A DNA stretch of 55,373 bases from the NCBI GenBank assembly GCA_022791975.1, contig JAAWAC010000030.1, positions 1 through 55,373 on the forward strand, written 5' to 3'. Source of the DNA: Lachnospiraceae bacterium (GTDB taxonomy: Bacteria > Bacillota > Clostridia > Lachnospirales > Lachnospiraceae). Shown piece after piece: positions 22,932 through 55,373 of the stretch (position 1 is its first letter; every line of letters begins with the position of its first letter). Below the pieces are notes generated by a model. The model was not told where the DNA came from, did not search any database, and was given only the letters and a program-made list of their open reading frames with translations. Position numbers and translations under genes: made by a program.

Positions 22932-23618
22932 TTGAGAAAGATTATCGACATTACAGGAGCTATTGACAATGGTATGTGGAATTACGGCGATCCCTTTCCG
23001 GAAGTAAATATTAAGCCGCTTCCCCCCATTGCCTGGCTGGATGGAAAAACCGTGGGGGCGGAGATTTTTGAGGGGGTTCATTCCCAGACAGGCACCTATC
23101 TGGAGACGCCGGCCCACAATTATGGGAATGAGAACAGCTATCTTTTATCGGATGTGCCGGCGGAAAAAACCTATGAGGTGCCCTGTGTGGTATTGAATCT
23201 GGGCATGTTTGACATGGATCTGGAGAAAGGCCGCCACGGAATCACCGTGGAGGAGCTGGAGGCCTGCCGAAATGCTTCCTGCATTAAGGAGGGAGATGCC
23301 ATTTTAGTAGGAACAGGCTGGGGCCGTTATTGGTTTGACCCTCACAACCTGGACGGCGCCCCCTATTTCACAAAAGCTGCCATGGACTGGCTGATTAGCA
23401 AAAAGCCCTTTATTCTGGGCGCTGACACGGCCAGGTGGGACAACCTAGAAACGCCCCAAAACTTTTTCGAGGATTTCTATGCTGCCGACATTCTAATGGC
23501 CGGCCCCTTTGTAAACCTGGAGCAGTGCACCGCCGACCGCTGCCTTCTAACTGTCCTGGCCGCCAATTTCATGCACACCAGCTGCGCGCCAGCCCGGGCC
23601 ATCATCATTGAGGAATAA
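22932..23618 (+). CDS. cyclase family protein (KynB/arylformamidase-like fold)
   Basis: 228 residues. Pfam Cyclase-type layout, with the metal motif region QTGTYLETPAH (residues 52-62) where typical members have HxGTHxDxPxH. Two His and the Asp are thus replaced (Gln, Tyr, Glu) and the last His (62) is kept; H50 lies just before. Metal binding may be altered. The start is TTG 22932 with AAGGAGG 8 bases upstream; a nearby ATG (22925) is out of frame. First gene after a consensus promoter and a 140-nt leader, and followed by the tandem palindromic repeats and an oligosaccharide/peptide importer. The substrate is unknown; hydrolysis of a cyclic amide or lactone is the family norm. Confidence 0.82.
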   Translation: MRKIIDITGAIDNGMWNYGDPFPEVNIKPLPPIAWLDGKTVGAEIFEGVHSQTGTYLETPAHNYGNENSYLLSDVPAEKTYEVPCVVLNLGMFDMDLEKGRHGITVEELEACRNASCIKEGDAILVGTGWGRYWFDPHNLDGAPYFTKAAMDWLISKKPFILGADTARWDNLETPQNFFEDFYAADILMAGPFVNLEQCTADRCLLTVLAANFMHTSCAPARAIIIEE

Positions 23619-23640
23619 AAACTGTAGGGGAACTCAAAAA

Positions 23641-24045
23641 ACAGCGAAAGTCCGGACCGCACCCGGAAGGATTTGTGGACGAGTAAGCGTGCAGAAATCC
23701 TTCCATACAGGGGGGCGGGAAGGACAGCAGCGGTACTTAAAAACAGCGAAAGTCCGGACCGCACCCGGAAGGATTTATGGACGAGTAAGCGTGCAGAAAA
23801 CCTTCCAGAACAGGGGGGCGGGAAGGACAGTAGCGGCACTTAAAAACAGCGAAAGTCCAAACAGCGCCCGGAAGGATTTGTGGACGAGCAAGCGTGCAGA
23901 AAACCTTCCAGAACAGGGGGGCGGGAAGGACAGCAGCGGTACTTAAAACAGCGAAAGTCCGGACCGCACCCGGAAGGATTTGTGGACGAGCAAGCGTGCA
24001 GAAATCCTTCCATACAGGGGGGCGGGGAGGACAGTAGCGGTACTT
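23641..24045 (+). repeat. four tandem copies of a 102-bp palindromic unit
   Basis: Copies start at 23641, 23743, 23846 and 23948, each opening ACAGCGAAAGTCC and ending AGCGGTACTT or close to it. Each folds into a long hairpin: outer AGTCC/GGAC, then CCGCACCC/GGGGGCGG, a 10-bp stem GGAAGGATTT/AAATCCTTCC (perfect in copies 1 and 4), and an inner stem closing loop AGTAAG or AGCAAG. The last copy runs into the ribosome site of the next gene. Related units occur at 42042-42140 and 55262-55373. There are no spacers, so this is not CRISPR. Confidence 0.93.
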
Positions 24046-24063
24046 AAAATAGGAGAATATGGT

Positions 24064-25652
24064 ATGAAGTATAGAAAATGGATGGCAATGTTTATGGCGA
24101 TGGCCATGTTGACTGCTGGCCTTACAGGCTGCGGCTCCAAAGCTTCCAGTGATCCGGGAGAAACCCAGACGCCTGCAAGCTCGGGGGGGTAGAACAGAAA
24201 GAGGAGACAACCACACCCGCAAGTGGAAATGGTAACACGTTGACTATCGGAACCACCGGGGATATTGATGATTTTAATCCCCAAACCAATCAGACACTGG
24301 TTTTCCTGAATACACTGACCTTTAACTGCTATGAATGCCTGATGCATTATGATGAAAATATGGATTTTGCCATGGACCTGGCTACAGAATACGAAATGGT
24401 AGATGACACCACCTATGTATTCAAGCTGCGGGAGGGCGTAAAATTCCACAATGGTGAGGACTTTACGGCTGAGGATGTGGTGTACACCATGAACTACATT
24501 CAGGATGAGAACAACGCAGCCTGGCGGGCTCCGCAGTATACGGCACTGGATAGCGTGACGGCGGACAATGAGTATCAGGTGACCTTTAAGCTGTCTGTGC
24601 CCAATCCGGCATTTCTGGGCAGCATCGCATATACCCCTATTCTGTGCAAAAGTGCGGACCCGGCTTCTCTGAGCATTACGCCTGTGGGGACAGGTGCTTT
24701 TAAATTTGTGAGCTGGACGCCAAACGATAATATTACCCTGGAAAAATTCGCAGACTACTGGGATGCAGACAAGATAGCTGTGGATAAGATTATGATCAAG
24801 CCCTTCTCGGACTATTCTGTGGCCATTACAAATATGGAAGCGGGAACCCTGGATCTGCTCTGCGGAATTTCCGTGGAATATTCCCAGGTAATTGAGGGGA
24901 AAACCGGCTTAAAGGTGATTCAGTCCAAGGCCTCCAATAAGATTGAAGAGGTGGAGATTGGCATTCACAATGTGGAAGCCTTCCAGGACCCCAATGTTTT
25001 AAAGGCTATGGTGATGGCTTTTGATGCCAATCTGCTCAATGAACAGGTGTATAATGGTCTGGGCAAGGTGGCTACCAGCTGCTTCCCCTCCGGAGCGAAA
25101 TATTACAAGGATGTCTATGACGCCCCCTTTGATATTGAGGCGGCCAAGGAGCTTTTGGCTACCACAGCGTATAAGGATGGATTCTCCTTTGATATGTATA
25201 TTTTAAGCGGTGAGGCTGACGAGGAAAAGGCAGCCATGATCTGGCAGGCAAATCTCTCCCAGCTGGGGATTCAGATGAATATTCAGAAATGTGAGTTTTC
25301 CGTGTGGCTGGATGCTTATCTGAACAGAACCTATGGAATGATTATAAATAACTATCCCATGGTAGGAACAGATCCTTCCACCTACTGCGGAATTATTCTG
25401 GAACAGCTGGTGGACTATCAAACCTCTCATCTGCCAGAGCTGAATCAGCTGATTGCAGATGGAAAGTCGGAGACGGACGATGCCAAGCGGGCGGAAATCT
25501 ATGAGAAAATCCAGACCATTGTAAGCGAGAATTATCCGGTGTTTACCTATATGGAGGTTCCCCAGCTTACAGGAGCCATGGATCGGGTAAATGGCGTGGA
25601 GCTAAATAACATGGGGCACATGTTCCTTAAGAATGTTACACTGAGCAACTAA
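24064..25652 (+). pseudogene. ABC importer substrate-binding lipoprotein (SBP_bac_5), broken by a one-base frameshift
   Basis: ATG 24064 (AGGAG upstream) starts a signal peptide with lipobox LTGC (Cys about 23), then a Ser/Pro/Gly linker. A run of seven G (24183-24189) is followed at once by TAG 24190-24192. With eight G the frame would read straight through into the mature protein (about 24195-25652), which is otherwise intact: FKLREGVKFHNGEDFTAEDVVYT is the family-5 signature of DppA/OppA proteins. So the gene is one base short: a real phase-off state, a mutation or a homopolymer sequencing error. The intact protein would be about 529 residues and feed the permeases directly downstream. Type 5 binding proteins carry peptides, nickel or oligosaccharides; the neighbours suggest a glycan. 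Confidence 0.88.
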
Positions 25653-31041: not shown

Positions 31042-32511
31042 ATGAAGGCAGTGAGGATTGGAAATCGCAGAGAGGTTTGTTGGGATGAGTTCCTTTTGGA
31101 AGAGGCGAAGGGAATTCAGGTACAGATGCATCGTCCGGAGTTTCGCAATGTGGCTTTGGAGTGCGATGCGCCCTGGGAGGGCAATGTGTGTGGCTATTTT
31201 ACACTGATTCCGGATGAGACACAATTTCGTCTGTATTATCGGGGAGACCAGCTGGATGTGGATAATGACGGGGTATGTAAGCCTTCCCACAAGACCATGT
31301 ACTGCTATGCCGAGAGTAAGGATGGGAAGACCTTTCATCGGGTGCCGGTGAACGAGATTTCCTTCTGGGGCCGTAAGGATAACAATATTATATCCGATGG
31401 GGTCCGAGACAATATGTATGTTTTTCGGGATTCCAATCCCAGCTGCCCGCCGGATGCCCGCTATAAGGGCCTGGCTGAAGCAGATGATGTACTCTGGTAT
31501 TATAAAAGCCAGGATGGCATGCATTTTACAAAAGAGCGAGTCCTGGCAGATGACGGCGCCTACGACTCCCTGAATGTGATTTTCTGGGATGAGGAGACAG
31601 AGCAATATTTTTTCTTTTACCGGGGACTTCACGGGGAAAACGCTCCCAAAGGCAAGTGGAGTGGAAAGGAATGGCGCAGCATGCACACCACCATTATCCG
31701 GGATGTCCGGGTGCGCACCTCCAAAGATTTTGAAAATTGGTCCGAACCCAGACTCATTCAGTTTGACCCGGAGCGGGAGGACACGGAGCTTTATACCAAC
31801 CAGATACAGAAATATTATCGGGCAAGGCATATGTTCTTAGGGTTTCCCACCCGCTATGTGGATCGCTACCAGGACGCCCAGAATTTCAACCACTTGCCGG
31901 ACTGGAAGCATCGCCAGAAGCTAATCCGAAACTGGGGACGCAGCGGTACAGCCATGACAGACGCCATGATTATGACCTCCCGGGACGGCTTTACCTTCCG
32001 CCGCACGGAGGAGGCGTTTTTGACCCCGGGAATTGAGAGAACTTGCAACTGGTATTATGGAGATTGCTACCTCTGCTATGGCATGGCGGAGACGGCCTCC
32101 GATATTCCCGGGGCGCCCAGGGAGATTTCCCTGTATATGGGGCAGGATTACCGGGTCAATCCGGTGAAGCTTTGCCGCTATGCCATCCGTCTGGACGGAT
32201 TCTTTTCCTGGCACTGTGATTATGAACCGGGGAAGGCCGTGACGAAGCCTCTGATTTTTGCGGGCAATTCCCTGGAGATCAACTTTGCCACCTCGGCGGC
32301 AGGATATGTGCAGATCCGCCTGCTGGACGGGGAGGGGAATTTCCTGGAGGGCTATGACTCGGGACGGCTTTTCGGAGATAGCGTGGATCGGGCCGTGGAT
32401 TTCCAAAAGCCCTTGGCAGAACTTGCAGGAAAGGAAATCCGCATGGAGGTCTCCATGCGGGACGGAGAGCTATATGCATTTCAGTTTACGGAAATGCCGG
32501 CCATTTGCTAG
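31042..32511 (+). CDS. putative five-bladed beta-propeller glycosidase-like protein, copy A
   Basis: 489 residues, no signal peptide, so cytoplasmic. Propeller-like N-terminal two thirds with repeated DG-K/M-x-F and W-SEP motifs (AESKDGKTFHRV, KSQDGMHFTKE, SKDFENWSEP, SRDGFTFRRTEEAFL) as in GH32/43/130-type and sialidase-like propellers. The C-terminal beta-sandwich (about 370-489) begins LDGFFSWHCDYEPG and ends LYAFQFTEMPAI. The catalytic acids cannot be named with confidence. It ends the first importer operon. The protein at 42161-43630 is a close paralogue (roughly nine residues in ten identical by eye). Likely role: breaking down an imported oligosaccharide. Confidence 0.75.
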   Translation: MKAVRIGNRREVCWDEFLLEEAKGIQVQMHRPEFRNVALECDAPWEGNVCGYFTLIPDETQFRLYYRGDQLDVDNDGVCKPSHKTMYCYAESKDGKTFHRVPVNEISFWGRKDNNIISDGVRDNMYVFRDSNPSCPPDARYKGLAEADDVLWYYKSQDGMHFTKERVLADDGAYDSLNVIFWDEETEQYFFFYRGLHGENAPKGKWSGKEWRSMHTTIIRDVRVRTSKDFENWSEPRLIQFDPEREDTELYTNQIQKYYRARHMFLGFPTRYVDRYQDAQNFNHLPDWKHRQKLIRNWGRSGTAMTDAMIMTSRDGFTFRRTEEAFLTPGIERTCNWYYGDCYLCYGMAETASDIPGAPREISLYMGQDYRVNPVKLCRYAIRLDGFFSWHCDYEPGKAVTKPLIFAGNSLEINFATSAAGYVQIRLLDGEGNFLEGYDSGRLFGDSVDRAVDFQKPLAELAGKEIRMEVSMRDGELYAFQFTEMPAIC

Positions 32512-40010: not shown

Positions 40011-41021
40011 ATGGAGACAAAAAACACCATTTTACAGATTGAAAATCTGAAGGTTGAATTCCGTGTGGGCAAAAAATGCGTTCATGCTGTGAATGATGTG
40101 AATCTGACGGTTCACCGGGGGAAAACCTTGGGGATCGTGGGGGAATCCGGCTGTGGAAAATCGGTTACGGCCCACTCGATTCTCAAGCTCCTGCCTCAAA
40201 ACGGCCGGATTGTGGATGGAAAGATCCTCTTTGCAGAAACGGCGGAGGGCCCTGTTAAGGAGCTACAGAACATGAAGCGAACGGGGCAGGAAATCCGGGC
40301 TATCCGGGGACAGAAGATCGCCATGATTTTTCAGGACCCTATGATGTCCTTAAACCCGGTTTATACTATTGGAAGCCAAATTATGGAAAATCTGAAACTT
40401 CATGAGAAACTGGAGGAGAGGGAGGCGAAGGCGCGGATTATCCATCTGCTTGGACAGTTGGGAATCCCGGAACCAGAGCAGCGCTACAAGGAGTATCCCC
40501 ACCAGTTTTCCGGTGGCATGAAACAGAGGGTGATGATTGCCATTGCCATGATCTGCAATCCCAGCCTTCTCATTGCCGATGAGCCCACCACGGCCCTGGA
40601 CGTGACGATCCAGAAACAGATTCTTCGGCTGATGCAAAAGCTTCGGGATGATTTTGGCACTTCCGTGATTTTAATTACCCATAATATGGGGATTGTGGCG
40701 GAGGCCTGCGATGAGGTGGCTGTGATGTATATGGGAAGGGTGGTGGAGTCTGGCCCGGTCCGACAGATCTTTGAAAATCCGCAGCACCCCTATACCAGAG
40801 CCTTACTGCGCTCGGTTCCAGTTCCCGGTATGCGCTCAGATGTGGAGCTAAAGTCCATCGAAGGCAGCACCCCGGATGCGTCCATCCAGTTTGACCATTG
40901 TGAATTTGAGCCCCGCTGTGAATATGCCAGTGAGCAGTGTAGGGGTGGCTTCCCCCAGGCCCGGGAGTGTGAGCCCGGTCATGTGGTTCGCTGCTTTTTG
41001 AGAGGAGGGGGAGAGTCTTGA
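40011..41021 (+). CDS. ABC importer ATPase, DppD/OppD type, second system
   Basis: 336 residues. Walker [10 protein letters not shown]-loop IFQDPMMSLNPV, signature SGGMKQR, Walker [13 protein letters not shown], switch ITHNMG, and a C-terminal Cys-containing extension (CEFEPRCEYASEQC). ATG 40011 follows AGGAGGGAAGG. It overlaps the next ATPase gene by 4 bp. Confidence 0.94.
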   Translation: METKNTILQIENLKVEFRVGKKCVHAVNDVNLTVHRGKTLGIVGESGCGKSVTAHSILKLLPQNGRIVDGKILFAETAEGPVKELQNMKRTGQEIRAIRGQKIAMIFQDPMMSLNPVYTIGSQIMENLKLHEKLEEREAKARIIHLLGQLGIPEPEQRYKEYPHQFSGGMKQRVMIAIAMICNPSLLIADEPTTALDVTIQKQILRLMQKLRDDFGTSVILITHNMGIVAEACDEVAVMYMGRVVESGPVRQIFENPQHPYTRALLRSVPVPGMRSDVELKSIEGSTPDASIQFDHCEFEPRCEYASEQCRGGFPQARECEPGHVVRCFLRGGGES

Positions 41022-42025
41022 CAGAGAAAAAACAACCACACCTTTTGGAGGTGCGGAACCTGAAAAAGTATTTTCCGGTGACCAAGGGGACATTTAAGCG
41101 GGTGATTGGGAAGGTCCATGCGGTGGACGATGTAAGCTTCTATGTGGACAGCGGGGAAACCCTGGGAATTGTGGGAGAGTCTGGCTGTGGCAAGACTTCC
41201 CTGGGAAAATGCATGGTTCGCCTGCATACTCCCACCTCCGGACAGATGCTTTTGCGAGGGGAAGATGAGAAACAGCAGGATTTGATGAAGCTTGATCGAA
41301 AGGAGAGCTTTGCTACCCGGCGCCGTATCCAGATGGTATTTCAGGACCCTTATGCATCCATGAATCCCATGAAGAGCATTTGGACATCTTTTGATGAGCC
41401 CCTACAGATCCACGGCTTCGGAGATCGGAAAAAGCGCCTGGAGATTGCCTCCCGGATGATGGAGGCGGTAAATTTGCAGCCAGAATATCTGTTTCGCTAT
41501 CCCCATGAGTTTTCCGGGGGACAGAGGCAGAGGATTTGCATTGCCAGGGCTTTGGCTCTCAACCCGGAAATTATTGTCTGCGATGAACCGGTTTCGGCTC
41601 TGGATGTGTCCATTCAGGCCCAGATTATGAACCTGATGCGGAAGCTCCAGAAAGAATTCGGCCTGACGTATATTTTTATTGCCCATGATCTCAGTGTGGT
41701 GGAGTATATGAGCTCTCGAATTGCAGTGATGTACCTGGGAAAGATTGTGGAGATGGCCCCGGCCAAGAATTTCAGCGACCGATGTATGCATCCCTATGCC
41801 CAGGCCCTGATGTCTGCTGTGCCTATTCCCAAGTTGGATGTAAAGAAAGAGGAGATTATCCTCACCGGTGACGTACCCTCCCCCATTCGTCCCCCCAAGG
41901 GCTGTCGGTTCCATCCCCGCTGTCCCCATTGCACAGAGCTCTGCAAGACCCAGGGGCCGGAGCTTCGCCCGGTAAACGGAGATTCCAGCCATCTGGTGGC
42001 CTGCCACCGAATCGGAGAGATATAA
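41018..42025 (+). CDS. ABC importer ATPase, DppF/OppF type, second system
   Basis: 335 residues from TTG 41018, which overlaps the previous TGA and has AGAGGAGGGGG upstream. Walker A GESGCGKTS, Q-loop VFQDPYASMNPM, signature SGGQRQR, Walker B IIVCDEPVSALD, switch IAHDLS, and a Cys-rich end (CRFHPRCPHCTELC). Last transport gene before the repeat unit and the second propeller gene. Confidence 0.93.
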   Translation: MTEKKQPHLLEVRNLKKYFPVTKGTFKRVIGKVHAVDDVSFYVDSGETLGIVGESGCGKTSLGKCMVRLHTPTSGQMLLRGEDEKQQDLMKLDRKESFATRRRIQMVFQDPYASMNPMKSIWTSFDEPLQIHGFGDRKKRLEIASRMMEAVNLQPEYLFRYPHEFSGGQRQRICIARALALNPEIIVCDEPVSALDVSIQAQIMNLMRKLQKEFGLTYIFIAHDLSVVEYMSSRIAVMYLGKIVEMAPAKNFSDRCMHPYAQALMSAVPIPKLDVKKEEIILTGDVPSPIRPPKGCRFHPRCPHCTELCKTQGPELRPVNGDSSHLVACHRIGEI

Positions 42026-42041: not shown

Positions 42042-42140
42042 ACAGCGAAGTCCCAGAGAAAGGCCAGAAGGATTTACGGACGAGAAAACGGCCGGAAATG
42101 CTTCTGAAGGAAGGCCTTTGGAGGGGACGAAGCGGTACTT
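42042..42140 (+). repeat. single diverged copy of the palindromic unit
   Basis: Opens ACAGCGAAGTCCC and ends GGGGACGAAGCGGTACTT. Stems: GTCCC/GGGAC, AAAGGCC/GGCCTTT, AGAAGGATTT/AAATGCTTCT (one mismatch), and an inner CGG-CG/CG-CCG stem with loop AGAAAA. The bases of the second stem differ wholly from those at 23641-24045 but still pair. It ends 21 bases before the next start codon, next to its ribosome site. Confidence 0.88.
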
Positions 42141-42160
42141 AAGATCAGAAGGAGAAATTT

Positions 42161-43630
42161 ATGGTTGCGTTACATATTGGAAGTCGAAGAGAGGTTTGTT
42201 GGGATGAATTTTTGTGGGACCAGGCGGAGGGAATTCGGGTGCAGATGCATCGTCCAGAATTTCGCAATGTGGCCCTGGAATGCGACGCGCCCTGGGAGGG
42301 GAATGTTTCTGGTTACTTTACTCTGGTTCCTGATGAGACCCAGTTGCGCCTGTATTATCGGGGGGCCCAGTTGGATGTGGACAATGATGGTGTGCGAAAG
42401 CCCTCCCACAAGCCCATGTACTGCTATGCGGAGAGCAGGGATGGCAAGACCTTTACCCGGGTGTCAGTAAATCAGATTCCTTTCTGGGGATGCAAGGACA
42501 ATAATATTATCATGGATACGGTTCGGGACAATATGTATGTGTTCCGGGACACCAATCCCAGCTGCCCGCCAGATGCTCTGTACAAGGGTCTGACGGAGGC
42601 GGACGATGTCCTCTGGTATTATAAGAGTGGTGATGGGATACATTTTACAAAGGTGCGGCTTTTGGCGGATGATGGGGCCTATGACTCCTTAAATTTGGCC
42701 TTCTGGGACCAGGAGACAGAGCAGTATTTTTTCTTTTATCGGGGGATTCATGGAGAAAATGCGCCCAATGGCAAGTGGAATGGCACGGAAGATCAGCTGA
42801 TGCATACGACTATTATCCGAGATGTCCGGGTGCGCACCTCCAGGGATTTTGAAAATTGGTCTGAGCCCAGACTCATCCAGTTTGACCCAGAGCGGGAGGA
42901 TACGGAGCTTTATACCAACCAGATACAGAAATATTATCGGGCAAAGCATATGTTCTTAGGGTTTCCCACCCGCTATGTGGATCGCTACCAGGACGCCCAG
43001 AATTTTGAACATTTGCCAGACTGGAAGCATCGCCAGAAGCTGATCCGGAACTGGGGGCGCAGCGGCACGGCCATGACGGATGCCATGATTATGACCTCCC
43101 GGGATGGCTTTACCTTCCGTCGCACGGAGGAGGCATTTTTGACACCTGGAATAGAGCGGGATTGTAACTGGTATTATGGGGACTGTTTCCTGTGCTATGG
43201 TATGGCAGAGACAACCGCGGATCTTCCCGGGGCGCCCAATGAAATTTCTCTGTATATGGGCCATGACTACCGGGTCAATCCGGTGAAGCTATGCCGCTAT
43301 GCCATTCGTTTGGACGGATTCTTTTCCTGGCACTGTGATTATGAACCGGGAAAGGTTGTGACAAAGCCCCTTACTTTCGCAGGCAATTCCCTGGAGATCA
43401 ACTTTGCCACCTCGGTAGCTGGGTATGTGCAGATCCGTCTGCTGGACGGGGAGGGGAACTTCCTGGAGGGCTATGACTCGGGACGTCTTTTTGGAGATAG
43501 CGTGGATCGGACTGTGGATTTCCAAAAGTCCTTGGCAGAACTTGCTGGAAAGGAAATTCGCATGGAAATTTCCATGCAGGACGGGGAGCTTTATGCTTTC
43601 CAGTTTACAGAGATTCCGGTGATTGGCTAG
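42161..43630 (+). CDS. putative five-bladed beta-propeller glycosidase-like protein, copy B
   Basis: 489 residues, the same length as the protein at 31042-32511 and aligned to it without gaps. Propeller motifs (AESRDGKTFTRV, KSGDGIHFTKV, SRDFENWSEP) and the C-terminal sandwich are kept. The DNA identity between copies is uneven: many silent differences in the first half, far fewer in the last 470 bp. ATG 42161 has AGAAGGAG upstream. It is cytoplasmic and ends the second importer operon, which suggests the two importers bring in related glycans. No terminator is evident directly behind it; 43631-43851 holds no recognisable gene. Confidence 0.75.
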   Translation: MVALHIGSRREVCWDEFLWDQAEGIRVQMHRPEFRNVALECDAPWEGNVSGYFTLVPDETQLRLYYRGAQLDVDNDGVRKPSHKPMYCYAESRDGKTFTRVSVNQIPFWGCKDNNIIMDTVRDNMYVFRDTNPSCPPDALYKGLTEADDVLWYYKSGDGIHFTKVRLLADDGAYDSLNLAFWDQETEQYFFFYRGIHGENAPNGKWNGTEDQLMHTTIIRDVRVRTSRDFENWSEPRLIQFDPEREDTELYTNQIQKYYRAKHMFLGFPTRYVDRYQDAQNFEHLPDWKHRQKLIRNWGRSGTAMTDAMIMTSRDGFTFRRTEEAFLTPGIERDCNWYYGDCFLCYGMAETTADLPGAPNEISLYMGHDYRVNPVKLCRYAIRLDGFFSWHCDYEPGKVVTKPLTFAGNSLEINFATSVAGYVQIRLLDGEGNFLEGYDSGRLFGDSVDRTVDFQKSLAELAGKEIRMEISMQDGELYAFQFTEIPVIG

Positions 43631-43851: not shown

Positions 43852-44310
43852 ATGAAAAGGTTTAAAAAGTTCACAATGGTCGCCTTTTTAGTGTTGACCA
43901 TGGTTACTGTGACAGCCTGCGGAAGAAACAGGGACAATGACACCAATGGAACCACCAATGGAACCACCAACGGGACCACGAATAATGGAACCGACACCAA
44001 CGGAACCACGAATAATGGAACCACGAATAATGGAACCACCAACGGAACCACGAATAATGGAACCACGAATAATGGAACCACCAACGGCGGAACCACTAAC
44101 GGGACCACGAATAATGGAACCACCGACAATGACTTGAACAATGGAAATGATGGTGATGGACTCATGGAGGACATTGGAGAGGGCATCGACAATATGGTGG
44201 ACGATGCGGCCAACGGCGTGGATGATTTAGTGGATGATATGACTGGAAATGGCACAGGAACCACCAATGGAACCGGGAATGGCACTGGTACTGGAACGAA
44301 CAATCGATAA
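43852..44310 (+). CDS. small low-complexity lipoprotein of unknown function
   Basis: 152 residues. Signal peptide with lipobox VTAC (Cys about 23), then residues about 30-95 made of TNGTTNNGT-type repeats, an acidic amphipathic stretch (IGEGIDNMVDDAANGVDD) and a Thr/Asn/Gly tail. ATG 43852 is preceded by AAAGGAGATTCAGT. A surface-anchored, Asn/Thr-rich spacer is likely. It is followed by its own terminator. I do not recognise the family; similar Asp-rich tails occur in unnamed clostridial lipoproteins. Confidence 0.8.
   Translation: MKRFKKFTMVAFLVLTMVTVTACGRNRDNDTNGTTNGTTNGTTNNGTDTNGTTNNGTTNNGTTNGTTNNGTTNNGTTNGGTTNGTTNNGTTDNDLNNGNDGDGLMEDIGEGIDNMVDDAANGVDDLVDDMTGNGTGTTNGTGNGTGTGTNNR
43936..44133 (+). 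repeat. 15-bp coding repeats in the lipoprotein gene
   Basis: Many copies of GGAACCACGAATAAT and GGAACCACCAAC-type units encode Asn/Gly/Thr repeats. The sequence is prone to slippage; unit lengths of 12 and 15 keep the frame. Confidence 0.88.
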
Positions 44311-55261: not shown

Positions 55262-55373
55262 GAGAGAGGGACGAAGCGGAACTAAAAAAACAGCGGAGTC
55301 CCTATCTGAACCCGGAAGGAATTACAGACACGAAAAGTGGTCGTAATTCCTTCCAGAGTGAGGGTACAGAGAG
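55262..55373 (+). repeat. palindromic repeat at the right edge, one unit plus the tail of another
   Basis: The tail GAGGGACGAAGCGGAACT (55266-55283) is followed by a new unit opening ACAGCGGAGTCCC at 55290. Its stem is a perfect 12-bp pair GGAAGGAATTAC/GTAATTCCTTCC around a 17-nt loop containing a smaller pair. The unit is cut off by the window end. Only the tail of the preceding copy is present. Confidence 0.82.

Follow-up and report, generated by a model that had tools for sequence, protein, structure and literature searches.

A sense-oriented family of hairpin units placed in front of Shine-Dalgarno sites in genomes of the Lachnospiraceae

The window, that is the whole stretch of 55,373 nucleotides analysed here, is contig C58 of a draft genome of a Lachnospiraceae bacterium (G000; 3.35 Mb in 66 contigs, 87% complete). 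Its plus strand carries a tandem array of four hairpin units, located at 23641..23742, 23743..23845, 23846..23947 and 23948..24049 and each recognised by sequence, repeat search, folding and covariance model. The array is preceded by a 5'-truncated tail fragment (CTGTAGGGGAACTCAAAAA, 23622..23640, + strand, read from the sequence), which starts 3 nt behind the end of the upstream open reading frame at 23618. The fourth unit adjoins a ribosome-binding site: sequence and translation place a Shine-Dalgarno (SD) motif AGGAG at 24051..24055 (+) and the ATG of the downstream gene at 24064. A single unit with its tail lies at 42042..42147 (+; sequence, folding and covariance model), flanked by a gene for an oligopeptide-type ABC ATPase (41018-42025) and one for a protein of 489 amino acids (42161-43630); the AGGAG of the latter is read at 42150..42154 (+) in front of the ATG at 42161. 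At the right edge the sequence reads as another tail fragment of a 5'-truncated unit (55264..55289, +), followed by a unit ended by the contig end (55290..55373, +), the last 76 bases of which are found identically at the end of contig C66 (L072). According to the coordinates of the model matches many contigs of this genome start or stop inside hairpin arrays, and therefore the repeat probably breaks the assembly, the end of the window included.

A sequence-only reading of this DNA had reported six units and an additional tail at 55266; all of them are present, and the repeat search returns them in register as families D3 and D5. The stem pairs which it described as differing between the sites and still pairing are also there, base-paired as named, and on the plus strand the six units fold far below their dinucleotide shuffles (z from -4.0 to -6.0). 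It further stated that two sites end directly at the ribosome site of a carbohydrate-uptake gene. The adjacency to the ribosome-binding site is correct and general in the family, but the assignment to carbohydrate uptake has to be given up: the gene behind the four-unit array encodes a family-5 solute-binding protein (PF00496), open from ORF 24240-25652, and the 489-amino-acid protein has no Pfam match. The solute-binding gene has a lipoprotein start at 24064, but its frame is closed by a stop which follows seven consecutive G near 24185, ahead of ORF 24240, so that the broken frame between 24064 and 24240 is either an error of the draft or a broken gene. The 489-amino-acid protein has a paralogue (31042-32511, 88% identity), which likewise gives no match in Pfam, and genes of peptide-type ABC transporters lie in the region of the two. 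The hairpin is present in the leader of the 42161 paralogue only, the 38-bp leader of the 31042 paralogue being without a unit. Elsewhere the window encodes a protein with a TIR domain and BspA-type leucine-rich repeats (341-2362; PF13676, PF13306), whose gene contains a 33-bp repeat array at about 977-1438, and a low-complexity array of GGAACCACCAAY-like repeats with a period of 12-15 is found at 43936-44285.

The consensus unit begins with the head (A/T)CAGC, which is followed by stem P1, a purine-rich internal loop and stem P2. In stem P3 GGAAGGATTT is paired with AAATNCTTCC around a small hairpin, P4, with A-G mismatches. On the 3' side of the rod P3 is followed by a bulge of about 11 nt, the 3' arms of P2 and P1 and finally the tail GCGGNACT; after the tail come two locus-specific bases, as a rule AAT or AAAT, and then AGGAG. 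The ends of the unit pair only as GC/GC and C-G around an A-G mismatch, beyond which the covarying stem begins. Loops as well as head and tail are conserved, while the stems change freely, and the stem subfamilies differ between species. The tandem period is about 100-110 nt, and a frequent form of the array is a tail fragment followed by n complete units. Among the matches listed, such a fragment was recognised before the first unit in 87 of 159 arrays (the 3' tail of five of the 159 could not be parsed in this analysis). In 52 of these 87 the upstream fragment and the array's own 3' tail share the two locus bases, where shuffling leads one to expect 10.9, which suggests that units were duplicated locally in tandem and lost their 5' part. 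Shorter forms of 37-48 nt, in which the central arm is missing, occur for example at L079, before a glutamine-amidotransferase gene, and at L082, L083, L084 and L104. L163, L164 and L165 are mini forms with little beyond P1 and the tail, tandemly arranged in L164, and the P1 arm of L165 could form pairs with the last codons of the preceding gene.

Further copies in this genome and its relatives, which the sequence-only reading had proposed to look for, were found. With blastn 10 places were detected in G000, and the covariance model finds far more, congeners included. The first model, built from nine local copies, gave 67 rows in G000 at E<=1, consisting of 61 element matches and 6 antisense shadows (strands counted by hand); the 61 include pieces at contig ends, so that the number of separate physical units is uncertain. 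In 40 relatives, scoring the best 99 candidates per genome, this model had 56 and 94 matches in two of three congeners and none either in the third congener, G001, or in the 37 genomes that belong to other genera. The later model R2 supersedes R1, in which the MAFFT rows had P1 shifted in unit 42042. Among the best 150 candidates scored it finds 57 copies in the own genome, 48 and 102 in two congeners and 0 in G001. In a sample of the family R2 matched 8 of 397 genomes (G000 included) and 7 of 334 genera, with the best ten candidates taken per genome, so that sparse genomes may be missed; G388 and G264 have at least two copies each.

When the tail together with the ribosome site is searched as a plain pattern, the distribution is sharply bimodal. 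G000, G003, G202, G290 and G299 contain 18, 67, 38, 27 and 16 sites, respectively, and each of the other 392 of the 397 genomes has at most two, similar to a reversed control pattern. Sparse carriers escape this pattern, as G191, G264 and G388, all with model matches, give 1, 0 and 1 site. In a sample of the order (392 genomes, family members included) only G000 has more than one such site. Named records with the core pattern have titles mostly from Lachnospiraceae or Clostridia among the matches listed; core-pattern matches in contigs of Rhizobiales and Acidobacteria and of goat Oscillospiraceae (L207, L230, L256) were rejected as chance hits, since these contigs, which are among the 61 sources searched with the covariance model, gave no match to it. 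We take the MGBC isolates to come from the mouse gut. Carriage by a phage, a plasmid or a virus was also considered and none was found: phages, plasmids and viral contigs contained no match to the one unit used as query or to the one core pattern, which fits 55 of the 128 known copies. In Rfam the whole window yielded at the gathering score a single tRNA elsewhere and nothing on the units, the four-unit array at E<=5 only three lncRNA matches far below the gathering score, and seven loci with other copies no match. As no copy was found in G001 and two each in G388 and G264, the element does not seem to be essential.

Selection on structure was examined in two sets of copies. The first alignment comprises 78 of 128 distinct full-length copies from three genomes on a hand-drawn structure, leaving out 8 truncated or deviant copies and those at least 85% identical to a copy already kept. 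Double changes occur in 28 of 32 pairs, and the covariation amounts to 0.269 in comparison to 0.110 (sd 0.005) in shuffled alignments and at most 0.083 with a slid pairing partner. The second, held-out set lies outside the model and contains 103 copies, 99 of which are distinct; they stem from as many as 18 other genomes, and to judge by the handles no fewer than six of these genomes belong to other genera. Here double changes are seen in 30 of 32 pairs, 89.9% of the cells are paired, and the covariation is 0.441 versus 0.141 for shuffled and at most 0.089 for slid alignments. These copies were fitted to the model, yet an independent alignment with MAFFT and RNAalifold yields the same rod. The relatedness of the sequences is lost in the shuffles, which therefore exaggerate the significance, and is preserved in the slid controls. 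Compensated stem changes are also found at genes which carry a unit in two or three species (e.g. L043/L203 and L024/L098/L135), the gene names being partly taken from N-termini. The suggestion of the sequence-only reading that structure is under selection is thus supported by the held-out covariation, beyond shuffled and slid controls. That reading had beforehand named three findings that would speak against it, namely no other copies, no significant covariation or a catalogued family; what was found are many other copies, strong covariation and no match in Rfam.

Further evidence concerns the strand. Among the held-out copies 166 G-U pairs face 43 A-C pairs (126 versus 43 without the column pair 34-75), while in the three-genome set G-U is only modestly above A-C (52 versus 29). 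In double-stranded DNA G-U and A-C are equivalent, and therefore the excess of G-U favours the sense strand acting as RNA. In addition, the minimum free energy of the sense strand is below that of the antisense strand in 134 of 141 last units; in 127 of 141 the two strands differ by more than they do in shuffles of the same unit, the mean differences being -7.1 and -2.8 kcal/mol, respectively. Selection on structure therefore seems to act on the sense RNA, and the cis-acting RNA proposed in the sequence-only reading gains support from the folding bias, from the excess of G-U over A-C and from the sense-oriented docking to ribosome-binding sites described below.

The address of the units, at SD sites, is the strongest result of the analysis. 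Docking was studied in 172 arrays, taken without redundancy among the matches listed in G000, two of its congeners and further genomes; 15 of them, ended by a contig end, were left out. An SD-like site together with a start codon and an open frame follows directly, in sense orientation, behind 146 of the remaining 157 arrays, as judged by a fixed rule. When this rule is applied to the antisense strand at the 5' end, 0 of the 157 satisfy it; of random places and strands in those loci 156 of 1720 do. The failures are the array at 23641 of the window with its broken frame, two arrays with another unit or a contig end next (L028, L156), three with a start codon but without SD (L113, L142, L248) and five with an unusual SD or start, or a short frame (L106, L119, L155, L217, L269). 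In 107 of 157 arrays GCGGNACT is separated from the SD core by 5-6 nt, in 20 by 4 or 7-10 nt; the remaining 30 do not fit the pattern. On the upstream side the end of a co-directional gene is found within 200 nt in 131 of the 153 arrays with enough sequence (median 27 nt). At L149:7410 a TATAAT box lies 8 nt ahead of the unit, and the mRNA may there begin with the cassette itself.

The SD may be part of the unit itself: the base before AGGAG is T at 22 of 24, 18 of 21 and 38 of 54 sites with the element in three sets, compared to 6 of 44, 5 of 32 and 20 of 161 element-free sites. Against this, at L152:3759 the SD sequence GGAGAGA is common to the filled site and the empty site of G001. The downstream genes look mixed, judging from 151 N-termini inspected by eye and from Pfam searches with ten chosen proteins, eight of which are products of downstream genes; among the proteins scanned are a tRNA methyltransferase, an HSP70, L7/L12, a glutamine amidotransferase, the acetolactate synthase small subunit and a class II tRNA synthetase.

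The reading that we favour, though with somewhat less than even confidence, is that these hairpin cassettes of about 100 nt, which copy-rich genomes have at dozens of genes, are structured 5' leaders of mRNAs, which likely mark a cut site and shield the downstream cistron at its 5' end. In this model the leader would be transcribed as drawn, with the rod directly 5' of the SD; an endonuclease would cut in or beside the rod, the remaining hairpin would shield the SD-proximal 5' end, and the downstream cistron would thereby be decoupled from the rest of the operon. A processing and stabilisation cassette is favoured because a stable rod in the transcript would stand immediately 5' of the SD, usually soon after a stop codon, and resembles in its position the clostridial SRPS stem-loops (PMC4423207, PMC10311766). 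As described in excerpts of these papers, SRPS occupy operon spacers of Clostridium (Ruminiclostridium) cellulolyticum and are linked to mRNA processing and stability, so that the position between the cistrons of operons is shared. However, these excerpts present SRPS neither as one dispersed sequence family nor as tied to the SD, whereas the units described here form a single covarying family and adjoin SDs, also downstream of a promoter-like box.

The units could alternatively belong to a translational riboregulator, in which the internal loops of the rod bind a protein or a small molecule and thereby control the access of ribosomes to the SDs of unlinked genes, which would form a regulon. 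The spacing of 5-6 nt that separates GCGGNACT from the SD core in the majority of arrays would suit such a device (30 of 157 are outside the distance pattern), and so would the conservation of loops, head and tail against freely changing stems and the spread over many genes. Equilibrium folding of 141 arrays, however, gives a mean unpaired probability of the SD of 0.540 with the unit, 0.552 with the unit shuffled and 0.671 without it. There is accordingly no sign in these foldings that the unit opens the SD, nor do they support sequestration of the SD by the CUUCC arm. Because, furthermore, the downstream genes look very mixed for a regulon and no copies were found in the congener G001, we consider a riboregulator unlikely.

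Independent of their function, the units seem to be gained or lost at given loci. Orthologous loci with and without the repeat, a comparison which the sequence-only reading had proposed, were found for five sites filled in one species and empty in a congener. At the trmD site (PF01746) G003 has two units between the preceding gene and trmD; in G001 nothing separates the two genes, which overlap by ATGA, G002 has a 23-nt spacer with an SD and no unit, and in G000 the flanking matches are 37 bp apart. A matched downstream start without a unit exists for L152:3759 and L152:12380 in G001, for L152:775 in G001 and G002, and for L149:7410 in G000, while L149:2679 and L149:12444 are matched on the upstream side only. 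With R2 at E<=1 no element was detected in the 12 searched loci of these empty-site comparisons. The matched filled and empty sites thus show gain or loss of units; as judged from such comparisons of sites, the difference may be due to insertion as well as to loss. The empty sites belong to other species and are too diverged to set insertion boundaries, and by eye no target-site duplication could be separated from the unit's own tail.

Copies at unrelated loci of one genome are up to 97% identical (L109/L060 in G003, L276/L203 in G299). The medians for the best match at another locus are 0.83 and 0.87; high values in G000 were left out, because they stem largely from arrays split over contigs. 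Identities of 97% at unrelated loci point to recent copying between loci, or to recent conversion. Dispersal is therefore supported by matched presence and absence together with these nearly identical copies, with gene conversion as the other way to account for them. Since the units are dispersed, present or absent at matched sites and patchy among genera, something probably copies them.

Searches for a possible mover covered the Pfam profiles PF01797 (Y1 or RAYT transposases) and PF00078 (RVT_1) in draft genomes which are 77-96% complete. Of the 26 genomes examined with PF01797, 13 have a match, and G191, G202 and G290, which carry copies, belong to these, but none was found in G000, G001, G002, G003, G264, G299 and G388 (G000 being 87% and G264 77% complete). 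RVT_1 has one or more matches in G000, G202, G264, G290, G299 and G388 and none in the copy-bearing G002, G003 and G191, and a resident reverse transcriptase of this type was therefore rejected as a necessary partner.

These data bear on the other proposal of the sequence-only reading, a REP- or MITE-like element moved by a transposase in trans. The dispersed and copied nature of the element stands; the REP transposase finds no support, PF01797 having no match in the four genomes of the genus or in three other copy-bearing genera, and units of about 100 nt which are sense-oriented and sited at SDs are unlike REPs. As a selfish, non-autonomous MITE-like DNA element, the family would owe its address to a transposase which picks SD-like targets in one orientation, and the hairpin would serve transposition and not an RNA. 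Such an element would explain the dispersal, the patchy distribution (7 of 334 genera with the best ten candidates; tail-SD sites exceed two per genome in 5 of 397), the 97% identical copies at unrelated loci and the stem subfamilies which differ between species. From double-stranded DNA, however, neither the folding bias of the sense strand nor the excess of G-U over A-C is expected. A target-site duplication independent of the unit's own tail was not recognised either, and the locus bases shared by 52 of 87 upstream fragments (10.9 expected) are explained by tandem duplication. We doubt this account to the same degree as the riboregulator.

It has also to be considered that the compensating changes could be a by-product of quasi-palindrome correction, in which one arm templates the other during replication and the structure itself is unselected. 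Wholesale switching of arms and the few G-U intermediates in the three-genome set (52 of 2486 cells) could be understood in this way. On the other hand, internal-loop mismatches and the bulge of about 11 nt persist uncorrected across the copies, and neither the asymmetry of sense and antisense nor the G-U excess of the held-out copies nor sense-only docking would follow from it, which makes this explanation very improbable. We have slightly less faith still in an RNA-borne element inserting by reverse transcription or reverse splicing into SD sites of mRNA sense, although the sense orientation, the SD address and the 5'-truncated first units would agree with it: RVT_1 has no match in three copy-bearing genomes, and decay in the direction of the stop codon upstream would account for the truncations as well. 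That the units are REP/REPIN or IS200/605-type elements with a Y1 (RAYT) transposase as their mover, a reading suggested by dispersed palindromes between genes, we reject as hardly credible, since PF01797 lacks a match in the genus as well as in G264, G299 and G388, and since the unit has two and a half to five times the length of a REP and docks in sense at SDs.

Several known systems share features with these units. Riboswitches and T-boxes are structured leaders upstream of genes with conserved loops and covarying stems, and in all these respects the units resemble them; the units differ by the lack of an Rfam match, the mostly intercistronic position, the tandem arrays and the mixed downstream genes. 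Correia elements (NEMIS) of Neisseria are dispersed palindromes with many copies, which can be co-transcribed. RNase III cleaves mRNA carrying Correia elements, according to the excerpt of PMC10969869. The likeness lies in the dispersed, multi-copy palindromes, but Correia elements are inverted-repeat MITEs, whereas the units described here have imperfect ends, a single orientation and SD docking.

Dispersed intergenic repeats of a Firmicute are also known in the pneumococcal BOX, RUP and SPRITE elements, which an excerpt of PMC3049150 reports as over-represented between convergent genes (16 of 86, 23 of 88 and 15 of 30, respectively), some of them being transcribed within leaders. While these favour convergent gene pairs, our units run in 146 of 157 arrays, among the matches listed, in sense into an SD, and SD docking is not a feature of either Correia or BOX/RUP/SPRITE elements as far as these are described in the excerpts of PMC10969869 and PMC3049150. 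REP and BIME sequences likewise are extragenic palindromes with many copies; in the excerpt of PMC3733652 REPs have 20-40 bp and a GTAG/CGTC tag, in contrast to units of about 100 nt which end in CAGC and GCGGNACT and whose genus has no PF01797 match. Among the matches listed, no description of such a hairpin family was found in the open-access literature. In summary, we rate the family as one that probably behaves as a transcribed dispersed hairpin; it is not a REP and has no Rfam match, its address is unusual, and its covariation record is unusually strong.

Dispersed bacterial repeats are usually taken as DNA parasites tolerating intergenic space. The contrast here is a repeat with one orientation and one address, the SD, whose sense fold appears to be kept by compensation across genera. 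It is conceivable, though we think it rather unlikely in this full form, that the units represent a mobile leader of ribosome-binding sites. This would be the first repeat family confined to the few bases before SDs and to the sense orientation. It would equip dozens of unrelated housekeeping genes with one covarying RNA module, be copied by neither a RAYT nor a reverse transcriptase, and rewire post-transcriptional control genome-wide within a genus.

The family raises the question of what places a unit of 100 nt precisely before a Shine-Dalgarno site. G001, in which none of the copies known from the other three genomes of the genus was detected, would be a natural control for the effect of the element. 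Moreover, the numerous leaders which at matched genes either have the module or lack it would form a ready natural library, by which the effect of a 5' hairpin on the decoupling of operons would become directly testable.
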